From positions 1 to 58,915 of the forward strand of contig JAFNIT010000006.1 of NCBI GenBank assembly GCA_017601345.1: DNA of 58,915 nucleotides, written 5' to 3'. Positions 35,800 through 49,623 of this stretch are shown here, piece by piece. Numbering within the stretch: the first letter of the stretch is position 1; each line of letters opens with the position of its first letter. A program made the position numbers and the translations under genes. The notes beneath the pieces were generated by a model. It did not search any database, was not told where the DNA came from, and saw only the letters and a program-made list of their open reading frames with translations. The DNA comes from Candidatus Brockarchaeota archaeon (GTDB taxonomy: Archaea; Thermoproteota; EX4484-205; JAAOZP01).

Positions 35800-36825
35800 A
35801 TGGATATTAATAGACTCTATATTCCTGACCCGGTTTCAGCCGGAATAATATTGTCGTACAAGTGTAATAGCAAATGTAAACATTGCATGTATGCCTGCTC
35901 CCCCCTATGGAAAGCTGATTGGCTTGCTAAGGAGGATATTAGGCTTATTCTAAAGCAACTGGCTTTAAGGATTAAGCCAAGCCCATATGGCTCTGAAAGT
36001 ATTGGTGTAAATTATGGACTACATTTTACTGGTGGAGAGCCATTTCTAAATTATGATCTTCTTTTAGATGCTGTTAAAACTGCGAATGATCTTGGAATTC
36101 CTTCAACCTTCGTTGAAACTAACTGCTTCTGGTGCGTTGACGATGAGCAAGTCAGTGAAAAGCTCACAGCCTTAAAAAAGGCTGGGTTAAAGGGAATACT
36201 AATCAGTGTAAATCCCTTTATATTAGAGCAGGTTCCTTTCGAAAGGGTTGAGAGAGCAGTCAGGATAAGTGAAAAAGTTTTTGGCAATAATACAATCATA
36301 TATCAAGGAATCTACTATCATCGTTTCAAAAAACTAGGTATAAATGGTACTATTACCCTAGACCAATATTTGAAGATAGATGGGTGGGCATTGCAGTATT
36401 CGGAACTTCTTCCAATGGGAAGAGCCTGCTACAAGCTGAAGCATCTGTTCGTAAAGCACCCTGCTAAAACCTTCTTTAACGAATCTTGCATATCTGAGCT
36501 CACTAGGAACTGGCACGTTCACATAGATAATTATTTCAATTATATGACAGGTTATTGTGGCGGCATATCTCTCGGAGATGCTAGAAATCTGGATGATTTA
36601 GTACGGGAAGGAGTAAGCTTGGATGATAGGCCAATACTACGCGCACTCGTCACAAGCATTGAAAGTCTCTATGAATTTGCAGTAAAGGAATTCAACTATA
36701 GGGAAAATGAAGAAGGATATATTTCTAAATGTCACCTTTGTATAGATATAAGGAGACACATAATACAACAAACCAACGAATTTAAAGAGCTTCAACCGAG
36801 AGAGCTGTATTATAATTTAGAGTGA
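35800..36825 (+). CDS. Radical SAM protein
   Basis: [12 protein letters not shown] (CxxxCxxC) and [15 protein letters not shown]-terminal CHLCIDIR. Confidence 0.88.
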
Positions 36826-38523: not shown

Positions 38524-38960
38524 GAGACTGAGTTAGAAAAAACTTTTTTAAACCTTCCTATTCATCTGCCGAGCAGCTAAGGTCAGTTTCTTGCTTCTGG
38601 ACTTCAAATACAGCTTCACGAATACAAGTTAATATCATCTACTTAACCTTAATTTTCTATTTTTTTATCTATGATTTTTAATGCCACTTTCTACGCAGGG
38701 ACTACATTCCCATTCTCCTTGACATCTTTTACAAAGGAATGTTTAATCATGAAATCACTTGAGCCGAGATTTGTTTTTTTTTGAGAAAGGAGTTCCGTGA
38801 TTTTAAAAGGAAATAAATAGATATCTTGATATTTCTGTAAGTACGGCTTATTACAAACGTCTTATTATTCTCCGTTTATTGGTTCATTTGTAAACTAAAT
38901 TATGAAACAATTCTTAAAATAATAAAATTCTCTCTTTCCCCGGGGGAGGGGTTGGGGGGA

Positions 38961-39317
38961 ATGAGGCCCTCAGAGATTAGAAGTTTGAAGGAAACGTTTC
39001 TGAGGACCCTGGTTTTTTCAATGTTGTTGGCTATTTTAACCAATGTTCTTTCTCTTTTCTGGGTAATTGGTGGTGAAGCATGGTTTGAAAATTCTTATCT
39101 TTACTCTTCCCCGCCTCCTCATAACTCTGATGGTAAAACGAGTAAAATCCAGATCGATACTTCTATTTCTAAAATGGAGGCGTCATTTTACGCTCCTGCT
39201 CAACAAGCATATGAGAAATTAGAAGCCAATGGTTCCACGCATATTGAAAATGTTTTTCAATATATTGCTCAGGACATAAAAGAATTATTTCAACTGATTA
39301 CCGTCATCTTTTCTTAA
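38961..39317 (+). CDS. Small hypothetical membrane protein
   Basis: ATG preceded by a G-rich SD-like sequence; TM helix LVFSMLLAILTNVLSLFWVIGG; possibly truncated. Confidence 0.4.
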   Translation: MRPSEIRSLKETFLRTLVFSMLLAILTNVLSLFWVIGGEAWFENSYLYSSPPPHNSDGKTSKIQIDTSISKMEASFYAPAQQAYEKLEANGSTHIENVFQYIAQDIKELFQLITVIFS

Positions 39318-39591: not shown

Positions 39592-40866
39592 ATGGGGGTA
39601 AAGAGAAGCTGTAGGATAGTTATACTCGCGGCATCCATATTTCCACTGCTCATTATAATGCTTTCATGGAATATCACCATACTGAAAAGTGCCTTTAATC
39701 CTTCAAATACTCATTGGAGACATCCGGAAAAAGCAAGTGGTTACATCGTTGACGGACGCGGTGAGAATATTGTTGCATTTCTATCTGCCGATGAGGATAA
39801 CGAAGTATTATTCGCAAGTCTAGACAATGGAACTGATTACTCCATGATTGAGCCTTGCGAAAAGGATTTTAAAGGACCTGTCGGCTATGTTCTTGTTTTC
39901 AATAGTTTTACAGATGAGGTTCAGTACCGCTACATATATCTCGGAATAGTTCCTGAAGGGTCTAATGCAGATTGCAGTCCTTCCCAATCTAAAAAGTTCG
40001 AGGTCGGCATAGGCGATATTGTTCTGTTTTTCACAGATTCTGAGGGTAGACCGCTTGAAAATGTTCACGTGGTTTTCGATGAATGGGGGATAGAGGGGTA
40101 TACTGACAAGTCTGGAAGCCTGAGGCTGGAGAAGATGCCGAGGATAAGCTACAGAATTACTGCAGAATGGGTGAGTAAGTATGGTAGTAGAGCTTTTACA
40201 AGAGCATTCGTGAAAGGCGACTACATTATAACTATGCCAGTCTACGACGTTACCTTACAATTATTAACTTCAAAAACTAGTCCGGTGGCTAATGCTAATG
40301 TTTGGCTGGGGAACTTATACCTGGGTGTTACTGATGGAGAAGGGAGGATCTTGGTTACCCAAGTTCCAGCAGGCAGCTATGTGGTTTCAGCAAAGTGGCT
40401 TGGCTCGGATCTTATTCTGCAAGGTGTGAATGTTACAACCAGTGGCGAGATAGTCCTAACACCCTCCAATGTACATAGTTTAACCATAATGGTCAGGGGA
40501 GCTATGGGGCAAGCTCTTGAAGGAGCTAGCGTTACCGTCTGGAAGGATGGTGCCGAACTGCTTAGAAGGATTACGGATAAGAGCGGTAGCGTGGAGATTG
40601 AGCTACCCGACGGAGAATATGTTATCGAGGCTTCTTTTGATCAGTTTCAGAAGAAGAAATCAGTAACTCTTACAACTGATAGTTTTGAAAGAATCGACCT
40701 GGATGTATTTGTAAAAGTGCTCGGTGTTTCGATGACTCTTTCACAAACTATCCTCTCAGTATTAGGAATAATCTTGATGATTGTTCTTTTAGCCGTGATT
40801 ATTCACGAATATCATATTTACAGGAGGAAGAAATTACCTCAACTCTTTATCGTAAGGAAAATATAG
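39592..40866 (+). CDS. Cell-surface protein with carboxypeptidase-regulatory-like/Ig-like repeats and C-terminal TM anchor
   Basis: Repeats of the type DSEGRPLENVHVVFDEWGIEGYTDKSGSLRLEKMP, ANVWLGNLYLGVTDGEGRILVTQVPAGSYVV, GASVTVWKDGAELLRRITDKSGSVEIELPDGEYVI; terminal TM. Confidence 0.72.
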   Translation: MGVKRSCRIVILAASIFPLLIIMLSWNITILKSAFNPSNTHWRHPEKASGYIVDGRGENIVAFLSADEDNEVLFASLDNGTDYSMIEPCEKDFKGPVGYVLVFNSFTDEVQYRYIYLGIVPEGSNADCSPSQSKKFEVGIGDIVLFFTDSEGRPLENVHVVFDEWGIEGYTDKSGSLRLEKMPRISYRITAEWVSKYGSRAFTRAFVKGDYIITMPVYDVTLQLLTSKTSPVANANVWLGNLYLGVTDGEGRILVTQVPAGSYVVSAKWLGSDLILQGVNVTTSGEIVLTPSNVHSLTIMVRGAMGQALEGASVTVWKDGAELLRRITDKSGSVEIELPDGEYVIEASFDQFQKKKSVTLTTDSFERIDLDVFVKVLGVSMTLSQTILSVLGIILMIVLLAVIIHEYHIYRRKKLPQLFIVRKI

Positions 40867-41160: not shown

Positions 41161-41847
41161 ATGAATAAAAGTGCGTTATGCGAAAAACATATATTTAACG
41201 ATTCTAAAAATAATACCGGCTTGGGTAAGAAAAAAGACATAGTGGACAAGCTCGACTTAGAAATACTCCACATTCTTTCCCGGGATCCTAGGCTTAGCTG
41301 TCGGGAAATAGCTAAGCAGCTTGAAGTATCCGACAGGACTGTGGCTCGTAGGGTATCCAGAATGGAGAAGGAAGGCATTATACTCGGATACCAGCTTGTT
41401 TTGAACGATTATGCTAAAAGCCTTGTTTTCGACACTAGTGATCTAAGCGAGATAAGGTTCACAGTAGCAGAATGGTCTAATTTCGAAGAGGCTCTTCGCC
41501 AAATGTATTCTACTGCAGCCGATGTCATATTTTTCTACGCTGGAAAGGGGATTGGCAAGTCGATAATAAGAAGTATGGGTAAAAGCAAGCTTAGTATAGA
41601 AGATGCTTTATCCTTCTCTTCTAAAGTGTGCAATATGAGAGGGTGGGGGAATGTTCGCTTCGATAAGTTGAAAGATAATTCAGTAAAGGCTGATCTCAGA
41701 GGTCTGAGAATAAACCCTTCTTTCTTCCGGGGAATAATTGCAGGGATGCTTGAGAACATGACTGGAAAGGAACCTGAATCATTGTTATTCACGGAGGATG
41801 GTTCACTCATAATAAGGCCCTTGGAGGGTTTGAGCCTTGAAGGATAG
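41161..41847 (+). CDS. AsnC/Lrp-type HTH regulator with C-terminal V4R-like domain
   Basis: LDLEILHILSRDPRLSCREIAKQLEVSDRTVARRVSRMEKEGII HTH; C-terminus IFFYAGKGIGKSIIRSMGKSKLSIEDALSF...FFRGIIAGMLENMTGKEPESLL resembles V4R. Confidence 0.75.
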   Translation: MNKSALCEKHIFNDSKNNTGLGKKKDIVDKLDLEILHILSRDPRLSCREIAKQLEVSDRTVARRVSRMEKEGIILGYQLVLNDYAKSLVFDTSDLSEIRFTVAEWSNFEEALRQMYSTAADVIFFYAGKGIGKSIIRSMGKSKLSIEDALSFSSKVCNMRGWGNVRFDKLKDNSVKADLRGLRINPSFFRGIIAGMLENMTGKEPESLLFTEDGSLIIRPLEGLSLEG

Positions 41848-42526
41848 AGTGCCCTTTGGCATAGCGGAGCTCGACAACCTTATCCAGGGAGGATTACCCA
41901 AGGGGGGGCTTATTGTAATCGCGGGCAGTCCGGGAGCTGGTAAAACAATACTTTCAGCCCAGTTCGTTTACAACGGTGCCATGTTATATAAGGAGAAGGG
42001 TGTGTACGTTTGTTTGAGCGAGAGCAAGGAACATTTTAAGAGCAATATGCTCGGTCTAGGATGGGACTTTAATAAGCTTGAGGAAAGAGGCATGGTGAGA
42101 ATAGTAGAACTGCCTACAGTGGCAAAAATAAGGGTTGAGGATATGACTGATCTTATAGTAGAGGAAGCTAAGAAGTTTAAGGCACAGAGACTCGTAGTCG
42201 ACTCGCTTTCAGCTCTAAACTTAGCATTAGGCAGTAGGGCTGAAGTCAGGGCGGTGATAAACCTGATTGCCAGAATGTTGAAGCACGTGGAGTGCACAAC
42301 GCTAATGATCACGGAGAGTCCATGGGGGACCACGGGAATAGGTATGGGTATTGAAGAATTCATAGCTGACGGCATAATACTCATGGAATCGGTTGTTGTG
42401 GGAAACAGGCTTGAGAGAAGATTGATGATACTTAAGATGAGAGCCACGAGTCACGATACCAGATACTATAGGCTGAACATAACTAAGGATTCAGGCATAA
42501 TTCTAAGCACGTACCCGGAGATGTAA
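41837..42526 (+). CDS. Single-domain KaiC-like ATPase
   Basis: FGIAELDNLIQGGLPKGGLIVIAGSPGAGKTILSAQF; AQRLVVDSLSALNL. Confidence 0.92.
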   Translation: MKDRVPFGIAELDNLIQGGLPKGGLIVIAGSPGAGKTILSAQFVYNGAMLYKEKGVYVCLSESKEHFKSNMLGLGWDFNKLEERGMVRIVELPTVAKIRVEDMTDLIVEEAKKFKAQRLVVDSLSALNLALGSRAEVRAVINLIARMLKHVECTTLMITESPWGTTGIGMGIEEFIADGIILMESVVVGNRLERRLMILKMRATSHDTRYYRLNITKDSGIILSTYPEM

Positions 42527-42535
42527 TCGGGCGGG

Positions 42536-44170
42536 ATGTTTTTCATGATCGACGAGGGCAAAGAACTATGGGATAAATACTGCGGCTTCCTCTACCAGGA
42601 TTTCCAGAGACAGATCGAGTACAATCGTGAAAAGACAGAAGCCTATTTTAAGAAGATCAAGAACACAAGGCTTCTTGAAGCCTTAGGGGCTAGGGATGCT
42701 GAGGACATAAGAGAAATACCTGTTACAACATACGATGATTATCTCTTCCTAAGGGTTTTTGAGGAGAGGATTAGTAGATTGGAAGCAACGACTCCTAAAA
42801 ATAGAGGTGAAACCCTAGCCGACTACTATATGCGTATTGGAAGGGTTGCTGCCGAACCTATTACAGAATATTTGCCCGGGGAATTCCAATCCTGCGTCAA
42901 GACGAGTGGAACAACTGCTCAAAGCAAATGGGTATTGTGGACAAGGCTCTTCCGTGAAGCATACTCTGAGATTGGAATATCTCCAATGGTCATGGCCTGT
43001 AGTGAACGCACCGGGGATACTCGTCTCCGTCTAGGGGATAGTCTATTGAACATGGGCGCGCCTCCGCCCTATTTTTCAGGATGGAGTCTACATTTTTTAT
43101 GCGAGCTTTTTCAATTTAAAGTATATCCTCCACCCGAAGTTATTGATAAGACTTCTGATATTAGGCGGAGAATTTGGATGGTATTAGAGAAAATAGATCG
43201 GATGAAAGAAAAAATAGCATTAATAGGGACAACCGCACCACTACTATTCCTGCTTGTAAAATATGTAATGGATAGAAGGTCTTTCTATAGAGAATATTAT
43301 GAGACGTTGGATATGGGGGCAACAAAGATATACATGTTTTTAAAATCTATTCACGCCGAATTGTTTTGGGAGCCGAAAGATATTAGAGATGTTTTTCCGG
43401 TAAAAGGCTTAATAAGCGCAGGTTTCGATTCGAAGATGTACATAGAGCTTTTCAAACGCACTTGGGGAATTGAACCGTTAAACCTCTACGGGGCCAGTGA
43501 AATCGGCTTCCCTATGTATGGCACGGTTGAAGATAGGTATAATATGGTCCCGGATTTGAGAACAGGATTCTTCGAATTCATGGATGTTAAGAGTGGTGAA
43601 GTGTTTGAAATAGATGAGTTAAAGAAGGGAAACAGTTATAGTCTGATAATAACCCCTTTCGGAGGATGTGTCATTAGATACAGGATTGGCGACATCTTCA
43701 GGGTCGAGCATTTAAGGGATGATGGAGCGCCCGTGTTCGCATTTGAAGGAAGAGAAGGATATTCGTTTGACATTTACGGCTATTTCAGGATCGATGAGAG
43801 GCTGGCTACTAGGGTTATGATTAAATCTGGGTTGACTTCTTCCGAAGACTGGTGTTTCGCCAAAATAATGGAGCCCAATGAAAAAGTATGCGTACTTATG
43901 GAGAAGGAGCGCGATTATAGTGAAGAAGCTGCTGCTGGAATGATATTTAAAGCACTGCTAGATGAGAGCGAGGACTTTAGGAACTTTATAAGGGATTTTA
44001 AAATAAGGAATCCCACAGAAGTGATCAAAGTTGAATACTTGGAAAGAGGTGCATTCAAAAGGTATTCTCATTCGAGGTTGAAAATGGGGCTTCCCTATGG
44101 TCAAGTCAAACCCCTTAAAGTCATTCCGACTCAAAAAATGGAGATTTTTGAAACATTAAGGGGAATGTAG
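42536..44170 (+). CDS. ANL-superfamily acyl-adenylate-forming enzyme (GH3/auxin-responsive-like)
   Basis: VKTSGTTAQSKWVLW phosphate-binding loop; LNLYGASEIGFP; CVIRYRIGDIFRV. Confidence 0.8.
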   Translation: MFFMIDEGKELWDKYCGFLYQDFQRQIEYNREKTEAYFKKIKNTRLLEALGARDAEDIREIPVTTYDDYLFLRVFEERISRLEATTPKNRGETLADYYMRIGRVAAEPITEYLPGEFQSCVKTSGTTAQSKWVLWTRLFREAYSEIGISPMVMACSERTGDTRLRLGDSLLNMGAPPPYFSGWSLHFLCELFQFKVYPPPEVIDKTSDIRRRIWMVLEKIDRMKEKIALIGTTAPLLFLLVKYVMDRRSFYREYYETLDMGATKIYMFLKSIHAELFWEPKDIRDVFPVKGLISAGFDSKMYIELFKRTWGIEPLNLYGASEIGFPMYGTVEDRYNMVPDLRTGFFEFMDVKSGEVFEIDELKKGNSYSLIITPFGGCVIRYRIGDIFRVEHLRDDGAPVFAFEGREGYSFDIYGYFRIDERLATRVMIKSGLTSSEDWCFAKIMEPNEKVCVLMEKERDYSEEAAAGMIFKALLDESEDFRNFIRDFKIRNPTEVIKVEYLERGAFKRYSHSRLKMGLPYGQVKPLKVIPTQKMEIFETLRGM

Positions 44171-44172
44171 AT

Positions 44173-46272
44173 ATGAACCTCCTCCCTTTCCATCCTTGGC
44201 TTCTTTTCTACCCTGCTGCAGCCATATCCTCATTAATAATTGCGCTTCAAATTTTAAAGGGTAGGCCTAAAACATTAAGCTCAAAAAACTTTCTATTATT
44301 CGCCTTATCAATATCGCTATGGGAAACCTTCGCTTTTCTTCACAGGATTGCTCCCAATGAAGATACCTCATGGCTCTTTCTACAATTTGCAATCATATTC
44401 TACAGTCTAAACCCTCTCCTCCTTCTAATGACTGTTATTTTCCTTTGGAGAGAGAATCCCAAGTTCTACTTGCTAACAATACCTGCAATTCCTTTGTACA
44501 TACTCCATCTGATGTACGTTAAGGTTAATATCGTGCCATCGAGTTATGGTTGGTCTTACAATTTTGAAATAAATACTTTCACAATAATTGAGTATTTAAT
44601 TTACCTGCTCTGCTTGCTTGAAGTATGTTTTTTCATCGCTTTTTTGATTAAACGGGTTAAAAGCAGTATTATACGTAGGAAGTATTTCATAATTCTAGTA
44701 TATTTTATCGTATTTTACGTCATCGGAGTTTTCGGCTTTAACATACTCCTAGTTGAGAATCCAGAAATGCCTCCGCCTGGAGGAATAAATACATACTTGT
44801 TCTTTCTAGGTGTTAGCTATGCCTTCTCGATAAGAGAGAAAACAATTAAACCTGAAATAGGGGAGATTAAAGACCTCTTGCTTAAGCAATACATGTCCTT
44901 CATTAACAAGTTTATAGAAGTTGTTCCGGGGAAAGAGCTTGGGCAAAGCCTCATTGAGCTTGAAAGATACTTAGTGAGAGTCAAGCTGAGACACGCATTA
45001 GAACAAGATTCAGAGGGCAGGTTAATATTAAAGCCAGATGCTCTGGATAAGGCAGACTTAATCACAATAATGGAAGAAACCATACGTTATCTTGAAGACA
45101 AGCCTTGGGTCATAGAGCTTTCCGACAGCCTCTTAAAACTATTGAACGTATCTTATATGAAAGTTGATGATAAAAATGGCTTCAAGAGAATGCTTATTCG
45201 ATGTCAGGATTTTCTGAAGAAAACGGATATTGCCTACGGCCTGATCGGAGGGGAATTTATTCCAGAAATAGGGCGTGACGATTCCCTTAGAGAGCTTCCA
45301 GACTGGCAAGCCTGCCTCAGGCTATGTCGCAGGCTTATTTCAGCAATCCTTCAAGATTTCTACAATAACGTTGGAAATACCGTGGAGAGTAAAATGGTCT
45401 CGTTCAGCCTCTTGAACCATTTAAGAGTTTCCAGCTTAGGCGAAGTTGAAATTAAAACCCTTGAAGAAAAAGTTAAATCAATGCCTCAAAACGAAAGGAT
45501 CCCGGCCTTACTGGATAATTTTATACCGTTTATAGCATGGATGGTTGAAGAGCTTTATAAAAAACTGGGTGAGAATATTGACAGTATCATAAAACGTTTG
45601 AGGCTCGTGTTAAGGCTTAACATGGATGTTGCTGTAAGAACCATGGTTTACAATAATCTTGTAGAATCATTGTCGAGAAGGATTCCATCGACCTACATAA
45701 GCGTGCTAAGGCTTGCTGAAGGCTTTACGGAAAGGGACTTAAACAGGTTTTCCTCAAGAATCAACTTAGACCATGAGAAGCTGGTAGGGAAGGGGATACT
45801 TCTCGAATTTGAGCCTGGAAGCACATACTTAGAGTATGTAAGTGATTACGTTATTGAGGCACTAGCCCACGATGATGCTAGTATAATCATTACGAGGAAG
45901 GGCAGCCAGTTGCAAGATAGCCTTCAATACCGTAGAAACGTTAAATTTATTCATCCTTCATTAATGACTTTACATACTACAACTGTTTCCGAATCGGAGG
46001 TTTACGTACCTCTACAGGATGTCATTCAAATATTAGAATCGCTTGGCAAGAGCATTAAACTCTCCTCCTCACCTGTATTCGTGGTTTTTGACAGTATAAC
46101 CGATTTCCTAACTCAACACGGTTTCGAAAAAACGTATAGGCTTATTAGAAGCATGCTTGAGTTAAACCCATTAAAAGTCTCGTTAATGGTAACTTTAAAC
46201 ATTAAGGCTTGGGGAGAGAATGTCAAGTCTGCATTAGAAGAGCTTCTGAACATTACTATCCGTGTTGACTAA
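44173..46272 (+). CDS. 7TM-type membrane sensor with helical linker and DUF835-like (degenerate RecA/KaiC-like) C-terminal domain
   Basis: Seven hydrophobic segments in the first ~225 aa; C-terminus LLEFEPGSTYLEYVSDYVIEALAHDDASIIITRKGS...SPVFVVFDSITDFLTQHGFEKTYRLIRSML is DUF835-like. Confidence 0.62.
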   Translation: MNLLPFHPWLLFYPAAAISSLIIALQILKGRPKTLSSKNFLLFALSISLWETFAFLHRIAPNEDTSWLFLQFAIIFYSLNPLLLLMTVIFLWRENPKFYLLTIPAIPLYILHLMYVKVNIVPSSYGWSYNFEINTFTIIEYLIYLLCLLEVCFFIAFLIKRVKSSIIRRKYFIILVYFIVFYVIGVFGFNILLVENPEMPPPGGINTYLFFLGVSYAFSIREKTIKPEIGEIKDLLLKQYMSFINKFIEVVPGKELGQSLIELERYLVRVKLRHALEQDSEGRLILKPDALDKADLITIMEETIRYLEDKPWVIELSDSLLKLLNVSYMKVDDKNGFKRMLIRCQDFLKKTDIAYGLIGGEFIPEIGRDDSLRELPDWQACLRLCRRLISAILQDFYNNVGNTVESKMVSFSLLNHLRVSSLGEVEIKTLEEKVKSMPQNERIPALLDNFIPFIAWMVEELYKKLGENIDSIIKRLRLVLRLNMDVAVRTMVYNNLVESLSRRIPSTYISVLRLAEGFTERDLNRFSSRINLDHEKLVGKGILLEFEPGSTYLEYVSDYVIEALAHDDASIIITRKGSQLQDSLQYRRNVKFIHPSLMTLHTTTVSESEVYVPLQDVIQILESLGKSIKLSSSPVFVVFDSITDFLTQHGFEKTYRLIRSMLELNPLKVSLMVTLNIKAWGENVKSALEELLNITIRVD

Positions 46273-46703
46273 TTTTTTACATTTTTACTTTGTACTATGT
46301 GTATTACTCTAATTCCTCTTCTAGTTAAATAATGTGCGATAAACCTCCTGTGACAATACTTAGGATCGGTTTCAAGACACATTATGCATGTCCTATCCTT
46401 CCCAGCGATTTCCAGAAGCTTATTAACTCCCTCTTTAAACCTCGTTGTTTCCATATACTTCTCATAGCCTTCGCGACGGTAACCCCCCAGCTCTTCCCCA
46501 AGCCAGAAATAGACAATCCCGTTTTCAAGAAGCCATTTCTCTATATTTTCCATGGTGAAGTGTTCTGACTTAGACTTTGGAAACCTTCGGATATCTACCA
46601 AAATCCTGATTCGTTGTCTCCTCAGTAATCTTAGAAACTCTTCTTTAGAGAGACTTCCATAGCCTATTGTCCAAATTATTAGTCTACCCTTACGCTCGGC
46701 CAA
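46269..46703 (-). CDS. DUF488-family protein
   Basis: IWTIGYGSLSKEEFLRLL...LVDIRRFPKSK...FWLGEELGG...CLETDPKYCHRRFIAHYL. Confidence 0.92.
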   Translation of the reverse strand: MAERKGRLIIWTIGYGSLSKEEFLRLLRRQRIRILVDIRRFPKSKSEHFTMENIEKWLLENGIVYFWLGEELGGYRREGYEKYMETTRFKEGVNKLLEIAGKDRTCIMCLETDPKYCHRRFIAHYLTRRGIRVIHIVQSKNVKN

Positions 46704-46857
46704 TCGAATAATATCCGATTAAGTGGCTTATATGAATTACCTAATTTTTAATGCTTCCTAACTATTATTCTCGTCTTTTGATCAAATTGGTTCGTACTCG
46801 AAGTAATTGACGGTTGGTTCTGAAGCCGAATGGAACAATTATTCGAGAATAAGTAAG

Positions 46858-46868
46858 ATTTATATATG
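46858..46868 (+). promoter_or_regulatory. Putative TATA box for the V4R gene
   Basis: AGATTTATATATG about 30-38 nt upstream of ATG 46897, compatible with a leaderless transcript. Confidence 0.45.
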
Positions 46869-46896
46869 TCTAATATGGTATTATCTAAGCTTGAAA

Positions 46897-47718
46897 ATGG
46901 CCTCTAGGAAAGACCAAGATCCTACTGAAATTTATCATCCTAAGGAAATAATGTGCTCCGAGTATGTTTCTGGAGGCGGGCTTGTCGAGTTTTTCATAAG
47001 GCTTCGTAAAGGGGCTGAATCAGAATTTTTTGACATTCTAAAAATCTTGAAGAAGAATAATGCTATAGGGTTATCCGGTTTCTACGATACCGACTTAGAG
47101 AAGGACGAGATTTACATAGGTTTTTTCATGGACATATCGAATATGAAAGACACGACTCTTGAGAAGATAGTTGAAGAGTTTAGGAAGATAAAGGGCGTTC
47201 TGGAGGTAAGGTTTTCACAAAGAGTATTCAAAGACCTGATTATTGACGAGCTCTTCTTCCCTTTGATGGTGGGCGGTGAAAGGAGCTTCACCCTCAGGGT
47301 TGAGAGCTTCGGAGCAATACTGAAGAGGCTCTACGAGAAATTCGGAACAGGCGCAGCAGTAATACTATACGAAATGGGCATATCCCTCGGAGAAAGCAAG
47401 GTTGAAAGCATTATTAAAAAATACAAGGTGGATAAGCAAACGGCTTTGAAAATAATATTGGCTGAGCGTGCAGCTAAGGGATGGTGTATTGCAGAGGCTG
47501 AAGAGGTAAACAGTAAGAGGGCAGTAATAATTGCCCGCGAACTTTTCGAATGTCTCCCCTTTAAGGGTAAGCAAGAGAGGCCTATAAGTCAACTTTTCAG
47601 AGGATATTTAACAGGGGTCTTCCAAAAGCTGTATGGTAAAGGGTTTACAGTATCTGAGGTTAATTGCATCGCCAAGGGTGATGATGTCTGCAGGTTCCTT
47701 GTAGAAGCTGCCAAGTAG
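46897..47718 (+). CDS. V4R-domain (4-vinyl reductase-like) sensor protein with N-terminal ferredoxin/ACT-like domain
   Basis: VILYEMGISLGESKVESIIKKYKVDKQTALKIILAERAAKGWC...FRGYLTGVFQKLYGKGFTVSEVNCIAKGDDVCRFLVE. Confidence 0.85.
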   Translation: MASRKDQDPTEIYHPKEIMCSEYVSGGGLVEFFIRLRKGAESEFFDILKILKKNNAIGLSGFYDTDLEKDEIYIGFFMDISNMKDTTLEKIVEEFRKIKGVLEVRFSQRVFKDLIIDELFFPLMVGGERSFTLRVESFGAILKRLYEKFGTGAAVILYEMGISLGESKVESIIKKYKVDKQTALKIILAERAAKGWCIAEAEEVNSKRAVIIARELFECLPFKGKQERPISQLFRGYLTGVFQKLYGKGFTVSEVNCIAKGDDVCRFLVEAAK

Positions 47719-48420: not shown

Positions 48421-48609
48421 TTAGTATTTAATATTTAAAAAGGGGTACTTCTTCTAGGTTTAAATTGGAATCGATTTATTAACTTGAATGCTTCCCAATA
48501 AGCTCCCATTAAACATGGGTTCCCATTCACGGCAATGCTTAAGAGGTTGTATTCAAACACTACGCCACTCATCTAAAGATTGGTTATTAAAATTCTGGAG
48601 GTGATGCTT

Positions 48610-49623
48610 ATGACCTCCAACCTAAGTCCTCCCGAATACATGACATGGCTACTTACCTCTAGGTGTAACCTTAGATGTGAACATTGCTACGTTTCTTCAC
48701 GTCCTTGGAATGGCGAGCTGGAAGGAAAAAGAATCATAAAAATCGTTGAAGAAGCATGTGAAATAGGTGTCGAAAACCTCCATCTAACTGGCGGTGAACC
48801 AATTTTACGAGAGGATATTTTCGAAATACTTAAAGCCGCAAGAAACGGTACAAACGTATCGCTTTTCACAAACCTGTTGTCAATGGACAGGGAAAAAGCC
48901 AGGAAGCTCGGATCCCTAGGGGTCCAGGTTTTTACAAGCATTGAAGGTGCTACAAAGGAGAGCCATGAAGCCATTCGCGGGGAAGGTACTTGGGACCTCT
49001 TAATGCGGCGTATAAGCATCCTTAGGGATGAAGGAGTTAGTTTCACACCAATATTTTCGGTATCACGCTTAAACTTTAAAGAAGCCGGGGAATTTATCCG
49101 TCTGACTGAGAATCTAGGAGCTTCATCAGCCCTGTTACTGCCAGTTATGCCATTCGGGAGGGCAAAAGACAGGGGTTTCGAAGCTGATTCTTACGCCTGC
49201 ATCAAAGCAATAAGTCTGGCGGAAGAGGCTGCTGAGGAGCTTGGCTTCAATATTACTTTGTGGTGTATGCCTTTCGCCGGTATATTAGTGAAATCCAAAT
49301 ACGTCTCATGGGACTCCTGCAAGTCTGAAAGGAATATGGATATTGGCCCGGGTGGAGAAGTCCTTATCTGCGATACTCTTGATGTTCCAGCCTCAAGTAT
49401 TAGGAATAAGAGCCTTAGGGAAGCTTGGTTTGAACTGAATTCAAATAGCCTTTTCACCGAAATCATGAATAACAATCCCTGTCCGGACTGTCCTATAAGA
49501 AATGTTTGCAGGGGAGGGTGCTATGCAAGGTCCTACAAGAAGTATGGCTCTTTCAACAACCCAGATCCCCTCTGCCCCAAGGTTTCACAGGAAATACGTG
49601 TCCTCCCAATACTTAGAGGGTAA
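48610..49623 (+). CDS. Radical SAM/SPASM domain protein
   Basis: SRCNLRCEHCYVS, LHLTGGEPILRED; C-terminal CDTLDV...CPDCPIRNVCRGGCYARS...CPK; ATG 48610 preceded by GGAGGTGAT. Confidence 0.92.
   Translation: MTSNLSPPEYMTWLLTSRCNLRCEHCYVSSRPWNGELEGKRIIKIVEEACEIGVENLHLTGGEPILREDIFEILKAARNGTNVSLFTNLLSMDREKARKLGSLGVQVFTSIEGATKESHEAIRGEGTWDLLMRRISILRDEGVSFTPIFSVSRLNFKEAGEFIRLTENLGASSALLLPVMPFGRAKDRGFEADSYACIKAISLAEEAAEELGFNITLWCMPFAGILVKSKYVSWDSCKSERNMDIGPGGEVLICDTLDVPASSIRNKSLREAWFELNSNSLFTEIMNNNPCPDCPIRNVCRGGCYARSYKKYGSFNNPDPLCPKVSQEIRVLPILRG

Follow-up and report, generated by a model that had tools for sequence, protein, structure and literature searches.

A conserved archaeal gene block pairs a GH3-type enzyme with a 7TM receptor: a candidate chemosensory cassette with KaiC-like or histidine-kinase output

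Introduction

What do a DNA-binding protein, a KaiC-like ATPase, a GH3-type adenylate-forming (ANL) enzyme and a 7TM membrane protein have to do with one another when their genes lie end to end in an archaeal genome? The proposal that KaiC-like ATPases act as archaeal signalling hubs rests mainly on domain and gene-neighbourhood arguments, and Makarova, Galperin and Koonin reportedly described KaiC-centred archaeal signalling in 2017 (cited in PMC5847659). GH3 enzymes are best known from the control of plant hormones. Inactivated-KaiC domains (iKaiC/DUF835) are listed in PMC5847659, and work on CirA in Haloferax suggests control of transcription by KaiC (PMC13286277). Our literature search found no paper linking GH3 or acyl-acid-amido synthetases with archaea. 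Here we analyze such a gene block in the window, the whole 58,915-nucleotide stretch of DNA, which comes from a Brockarchaeota MAG (G000; 1.18 Mb, 36 contigs, 77% complete).

Results

The earlier note on this DNA had described four co-directional genes, and their coordinates, strands and spacing are all reproduced: an open reading frame at 41161-41847 is followed by the KaiC, ANL and receptor frames of Table 1, all on the + strand and with gaps of -11, +9 and +2 nt. The four genes form an operon-like block in the order HTH-KaiC-ANL-7TM. Six of the eight same-genus genomes (G000, G002, G003, G004, G005, and G007) keep the block in the same order and with tight spacing; the 7TM gene of G002 is cut by the contig end, and the two genomes with no match to the block are ~70% complete. 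Most flanking genes differ among the six genomes while block order stays. We conclude that conservation of the block is more than chance. Within the genus, identity of KaiC is 69-83%; between the window and the G002-G005 lineage it is ~70% for KaiC, ~50% for the HTH protein, ~38% for the ANL, and ~28% for the 7TM protein.

Table 1. Features of the locus in window coordinates, with the evidence for each
Feature	Position	Strand	Evidence
Small membrane protein, possibly associated with the core	38952..39317	+	Upstream also in G002, G003, G005; tblastn 45-49% over ~45 residues
Membrane protein with CarboxypepD_reg domains, possibly associated with the core	39592..40866	+	Pfam; upstream of the core also in G002-G005
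Promoter-like box: AAAAGTGCGTT...CGAAAA (BRE-like) then ATATAT (TATA-like)	41167..41194	+	Conserved 5' of the HTH gene in six genomes
AsnC-type HTH and degenerate V4R-like domain	41221..41847 (probable start)	+	HTH_24, 55 bits; start aligned with relatives
KaiC-like ATPase, single-domain, P-loop intact	41837..42526	+	PF06745, 201 bits (cut-off 26.6); Walker A GSPGAGKT, Walker B-like LVVDSLS; overlaps HTH gene by 11 nt
GH3-type ANL enzyme	42536..44170	+	GH3_M (Pfam), 40.8 bits (cut-off 23.6); PDB profile and Foldseek matches
Putative receptor: 7TM part 44173-44847, helical middle domain 44848-45708, predicted KaiC/FlaH-like tail 45709-46269	44173..46272	+	Tail without Walker A; homology of residues 9-512 and fold
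DUF488 protein	46269..46703	convergent	87 bits
V4R protein, neighbour outside the conserved core	46897..47718	+	PF02830, 40.2 bits (cut-off 31)

Beyond the block, conservation falls away. The convergent DUF488 gene and the V4R protein were correctly named in the earlier note, which had also counted the latter as a second sensor of the system. Together with the downstream radical-SAM gene, both adjoin the core only in G007, the closest relative, and not in G002-G005; the V4R gene was rejected as a member of the system on this ground. Two radical-SAM genes flank the region in the window (35800-36825 and 48580-49623). Between the CarboxypepD_reg and HTH genes of two relatives lies a small gene pair that looks toxin-antitoxin-like by eye only (L016:6833-7458 and L017:5879-6551).

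The KaiC assignment of the earlier note needs little comment, the profile score being far above cut-off and the Walker motifs present. The assignment of the third protein to GH3-type ANL ligases also stands. GH3_M matches above its cut-off; the N-terminal GH3 model scores 12 bits, below cut-off. When a profile of 12 ANL orthologues was compared with the PDB, the best matches were all plant GH3 enzymes (top 2.9e-16), and Foldseek placed the AlphaFold model (pLDDT 85) closest to plant GH3.15 (6e-19). The window ANL is 80% identical to an ANL on contig JAFNJB010000046. We call clade A the ANLs of the window genus together with orthologues of 36-45% identity; nearly all of them keep the adenylation motifs TSGTT..K, YGxxE, RYxxxD, and GQxKP, with some variants. 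The enzyme may make or modify an acyl-type ligand.

Could the ANL be an ordinary catabolic acyl- or aryl-CoA ligase, beside a receptor that senses an external substrate through KaiC or a kinase, with no dedicated signal involved? PaaK-type CoA ligases are indeed the next-best fold matches after plant GH3, and carboxylates are plausible substrates for these heterotrophs. But the ANL profiles match GH3 rather than CoA ligases, and no catabolic genes are kept next to the ANL-receptor pair across lineages. We consider this explanation rather unlikely.

The fourth protein had been described as a 7TM-DUF835 receptor, of which the 7TM half holds. Its N terminus scores 25.1 bits with HisKA_7TM (PF16927; cut-off 28.6), and residues 9-512 match a 7TM histidine kinase from G123, a genome outside the genus, at 1.1e-59 (7TM part, 2.2e-21; middle domain, 5.8e-34). 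Nothing significant was found between this kinase and residues 513-699. Homology of the receptors thus ends at about residue 512, where the output changes, and in both forms the receptor contains an additional helical domain of ~290 residues. Since the 7TM and middle regions are fused to a histidine kinase in relatives, we take the 7TM part to be the sensory input, i.e., a receptor. One might still regard the 7TM protein as a membrane enzyme or transporter, for which the ANL supplies activated acyl groups for lipid or protein modification in a process regulated by KaiC; the position of the ANL next to a membrane protein is compatible with substrate transfer, and the window protein has a very weak Per1-like match (E 0.14). 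However, the fusion of the same region to HisKA and HATPase is what is seen in receptors, and no conserved His/Asp/Ser catalytic set stands out in the invariant 7TM columns, making such a role improbable.

DUF835 was rejected as a name for the receptor tail, because PF05763 gave no match even at E <= 10 in five orthologues. In relatives, weak DUF7090/DUF7504 matches were seen, and the window tail matches that of the G212 receptor at 1.3e-23. No Walker A motif was found in it, and an hhalign comparison with active KaiC was not significant (E 0.082). With a model of low confidence (pLDDT ~40-68), the top Foldseek match was FlaH (4yds, E 0.0098, prob 1.0), accompanied by many KaiC proteins. By predicted fold, then, the tail resembles a P-loop-less KaiC/FlaH-like domain.

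The first protein had been called HTH-V4R. The HTH is clear from Pfam, which also gives an AsnC-type HTH at 49 bits as a test of Lrp/AsnC membership; an AsnC/RAM effector domain was not among the Pfam matches listed, and a phylum-wide HTH search was dominated by AsnC-type domains. The V4R profile (PF02830) was likewise not among the matches listed for the C terminus, which carries no Cys motif. Kinship with V4R comes from pairwise similarity only, to a 146-aa V4R-like protein of G212 (5.6e-9) and to an HTH-V4R paralogue. Paralogous HTH-V4R proteins with the Cys motif are encoded at L072:6968-7633 (G000) and L073:4000-4656 (G007), where they adjoin another regulator-like gene away from the four-gene operon.

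The start of the HTH gene, previously placed at 41161, has to be moved: the first 20 codons from there hold the conserved BRE/TATA-like box of Table 1, and TTG 41221 aligns with the ATG of a relative, so the gene probably starts at 41221. A pattern derived from the box, and searched in the same sequences from which it was built, had exactly one match per genome in four genomes, every time upstream of the HTH gene. The regulon search with the box returned no second site at under three mismatches. An operon-specific conserved box fits autoregulation, and positions 41167-41194 are a possible self-regulation site.

To follow the block beyond the genus, we used samples of 398 genomes of the phylum and 251 genomes of the class of G075. 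ANL orthologues were present in 12 non-genus genomes (G075, G123, G270, G212, G343, G363, G371, G482, G496, G520, G521, and G549), whose class, that of G075, is probably Bathyarchaeia. In all clade A loci outside the genus where the contig continues on the right side, the ANL adjoins a 7TM gene. Seven of these receptors end in a histidine kinase (G075, G123, G270, G363, G371, G482, and G520), with HisKA and HATPase above Pfam cut-offs in the tails; the G371 frame is split into two pieces. For G343 and G521, the locus is divided between contigs, the second of which opens with the kinase end. The contigs of G496 and G549 stop next to the ANL, and a response regulator and small genes typical of kinase-wired loci are present there. 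G212 has V4R-like, KaiC, ANL and 7TM genes in the window's order, without the HTH. In the stretches read, clade A loci contain KaiC or histidine kinase/response regulator, never both.

The ANL-receptor pair thus occurs in two archaeal classes, and conservation does extend beyond close relatives. Its recurrence, together with fusion of the receptor to a bona fide histidine kinase, supports the proposal that the locus is a dedicated signalling system. Shared chromosomal ancestry without functional linkage, to which the relatedness of the same-genus genomes and the V4R, DUF488, and radical-SAM genes common to the closest pair only might point, is very improbable: ANL and 7TM genes remain neighbours in another class, where ANL identity is 36-45% and both gene orientation and output vary, and the pairing recurs in a clade of ~23% ANL identity.

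Common to kinase-wired loci are a response regulator, a 101-aa protein, and a 130-aa four-TM protein (L067:11493-15642, L102:8560-9746, and L069:7618-8004), joined in some by a winged-helix protein and a 383-aa protein. Because the four-TM protein is also encoded beside the KaiC-wired G212 locus (E 3e-25), it may belong to the input module. In G549, a full-length 7TM kinase of the receptor family (L136:5826-8162) lies on a contig with no ANL gene; its neighbourhood resembles that of G520, where the ANL is present, so that either the receptor is an orphan or the enzyme has been lost.

We next compared the two-component content of the genomes, with kinases counted by PF00512 (HisKA) alone. The seven KaiC-wired genomes (77-95% complete) have zero HisKA and zero response regulators by this count; among them, no two-component domains were found in the window genome (77% complete) and five same-genus genomes. 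G363 (92% complete) has one HisKA and one response regulator, both at the ANL-receptor locus. In the remaining kinase-wired genomes, the counts are 1-4 for HisKA and 1-13 for response regulators, except that no HisKA was found in G496 (84% complete, contig cut at the locus).

A distant clade consists of GH3-like ANLs of ~23% identity. All 12 loci read adjoin a membrane protein of ~370-420 residues with a 7TM part and a KaiC-like tail, and in 9 of the 12, KaiC adjoins the pair as well. These genomes possess two-component genes; hence, KaiC wiring is not simply the default for lack of kinases. Tails of clade A and of the distant clade share a profile (prob 83-86), and their 7TM parts show no significant likeness (prob 2.5); we therefore claim homology for the tails only. 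A distant-clade profile run over the 398 phylum genomes found, beyond clade A, only G021, in which the ANL, membrane protein, and KaiC at L071:9572-12582 are broken into pieces, either because the copy is decaying or through errors of assembly.

All kinase-wired rows fall into a single clade (100/100) of the ANL tree, nested within the KaiC-wired rows, and the distant clade lies outside. This topology favours an ancestral KaiC wiring and a single switch to the kinase, but G212 sits on a long branch and bootstrap support is 82-83% at two key forks.

Discussion

We propose that the block is a chemosensory cassette whose input half, enzyme plus receptor, is fixed and whose output half, KaiC or kinase, can be exchanged, and put the probability of this reading at roughly 0.55. 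The ANL stays with the receptor when the output changes, and the enzyme is therefore assigned to the input side. There, the GH3-type enzyme would adenylate, and probably conjugate, a carboxylic acid and so set the level of a small acyl-type ligand, which the 7TM protein with its helical linker would sense. In the window, the P-loop-less KaiC-like tail of the receptor may engage the adjacent active KaiC ATPase, which in turn may control, by contact or relay, the translationally coupled HTH-V4R protein; the targets of the latter would include the operon's own promoter. Relatives that possess two-component systems couple the same input to a histidine kinase, and a response regulator is often encoded close by.

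A bolder version takes the natural output swap as evidence that the relay of KaiC and inactive KaiC can do the same work as a histidine kinase with its response regulator, and holds that one acyl-signal input, ancestrally KaiC-wired, was rewired once to a two-component output in a lineage with two-component genes. We offer this tentatively and hold it somewhat short of even odds.

The proposed cassette resembles several known systems in part. As in KaiC-centred archaeal signalling, an active KaiC stands beside a DNA-binding protein and a sensor whose tail is predicted to be an inactive KaiC-like domain; the window differs in that DUF835 does not match this tail, the unit includes a GH3 enzyme, and the receptor also has a kinase form. 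Archaeal two-component 7TM histidine kinases (HisKA_7TM) resemble the receptor in its N terminus and, in the relatives, in HisKA and HATPase, mostly with a response regulator nearby. The window form has no kinase and scores below the Pfam cut-off, and both it and the relatives' form have the extra helical domain. Plant GH3 acyl acid amido synthetases (GH3.12, GH3.15, and JAR1) have the same family profile, fold, and adenylation motifs, but the window ANL is ~15% identical to them, archaeal, and genetically tied to a receptor. In RpfB-RpfC-RpfG of Xanthomonas, the signal of a membrane sensor kinase is the target of an acyl-activating ligase of ANL type; the acyl ligase RpfB removes a signal (PMC9040794). 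Rpf has no GH3 enzyme and no KaiC, and the comparison is one of working principle and not of membership.

Since nature offers one receptor with two kinds of output, KaiC-like and histidine kinase, the better-known kinase form could be used as a readout, both in a search for the ligand and, by domain exchange, in testing the KaiC form. Our results suggest that GH3 enzymes take part in archaeal signalling. If the bolder reading is true, the locus would represent a system of chemical signalling in archaea with a GH3 enzyme at its base.
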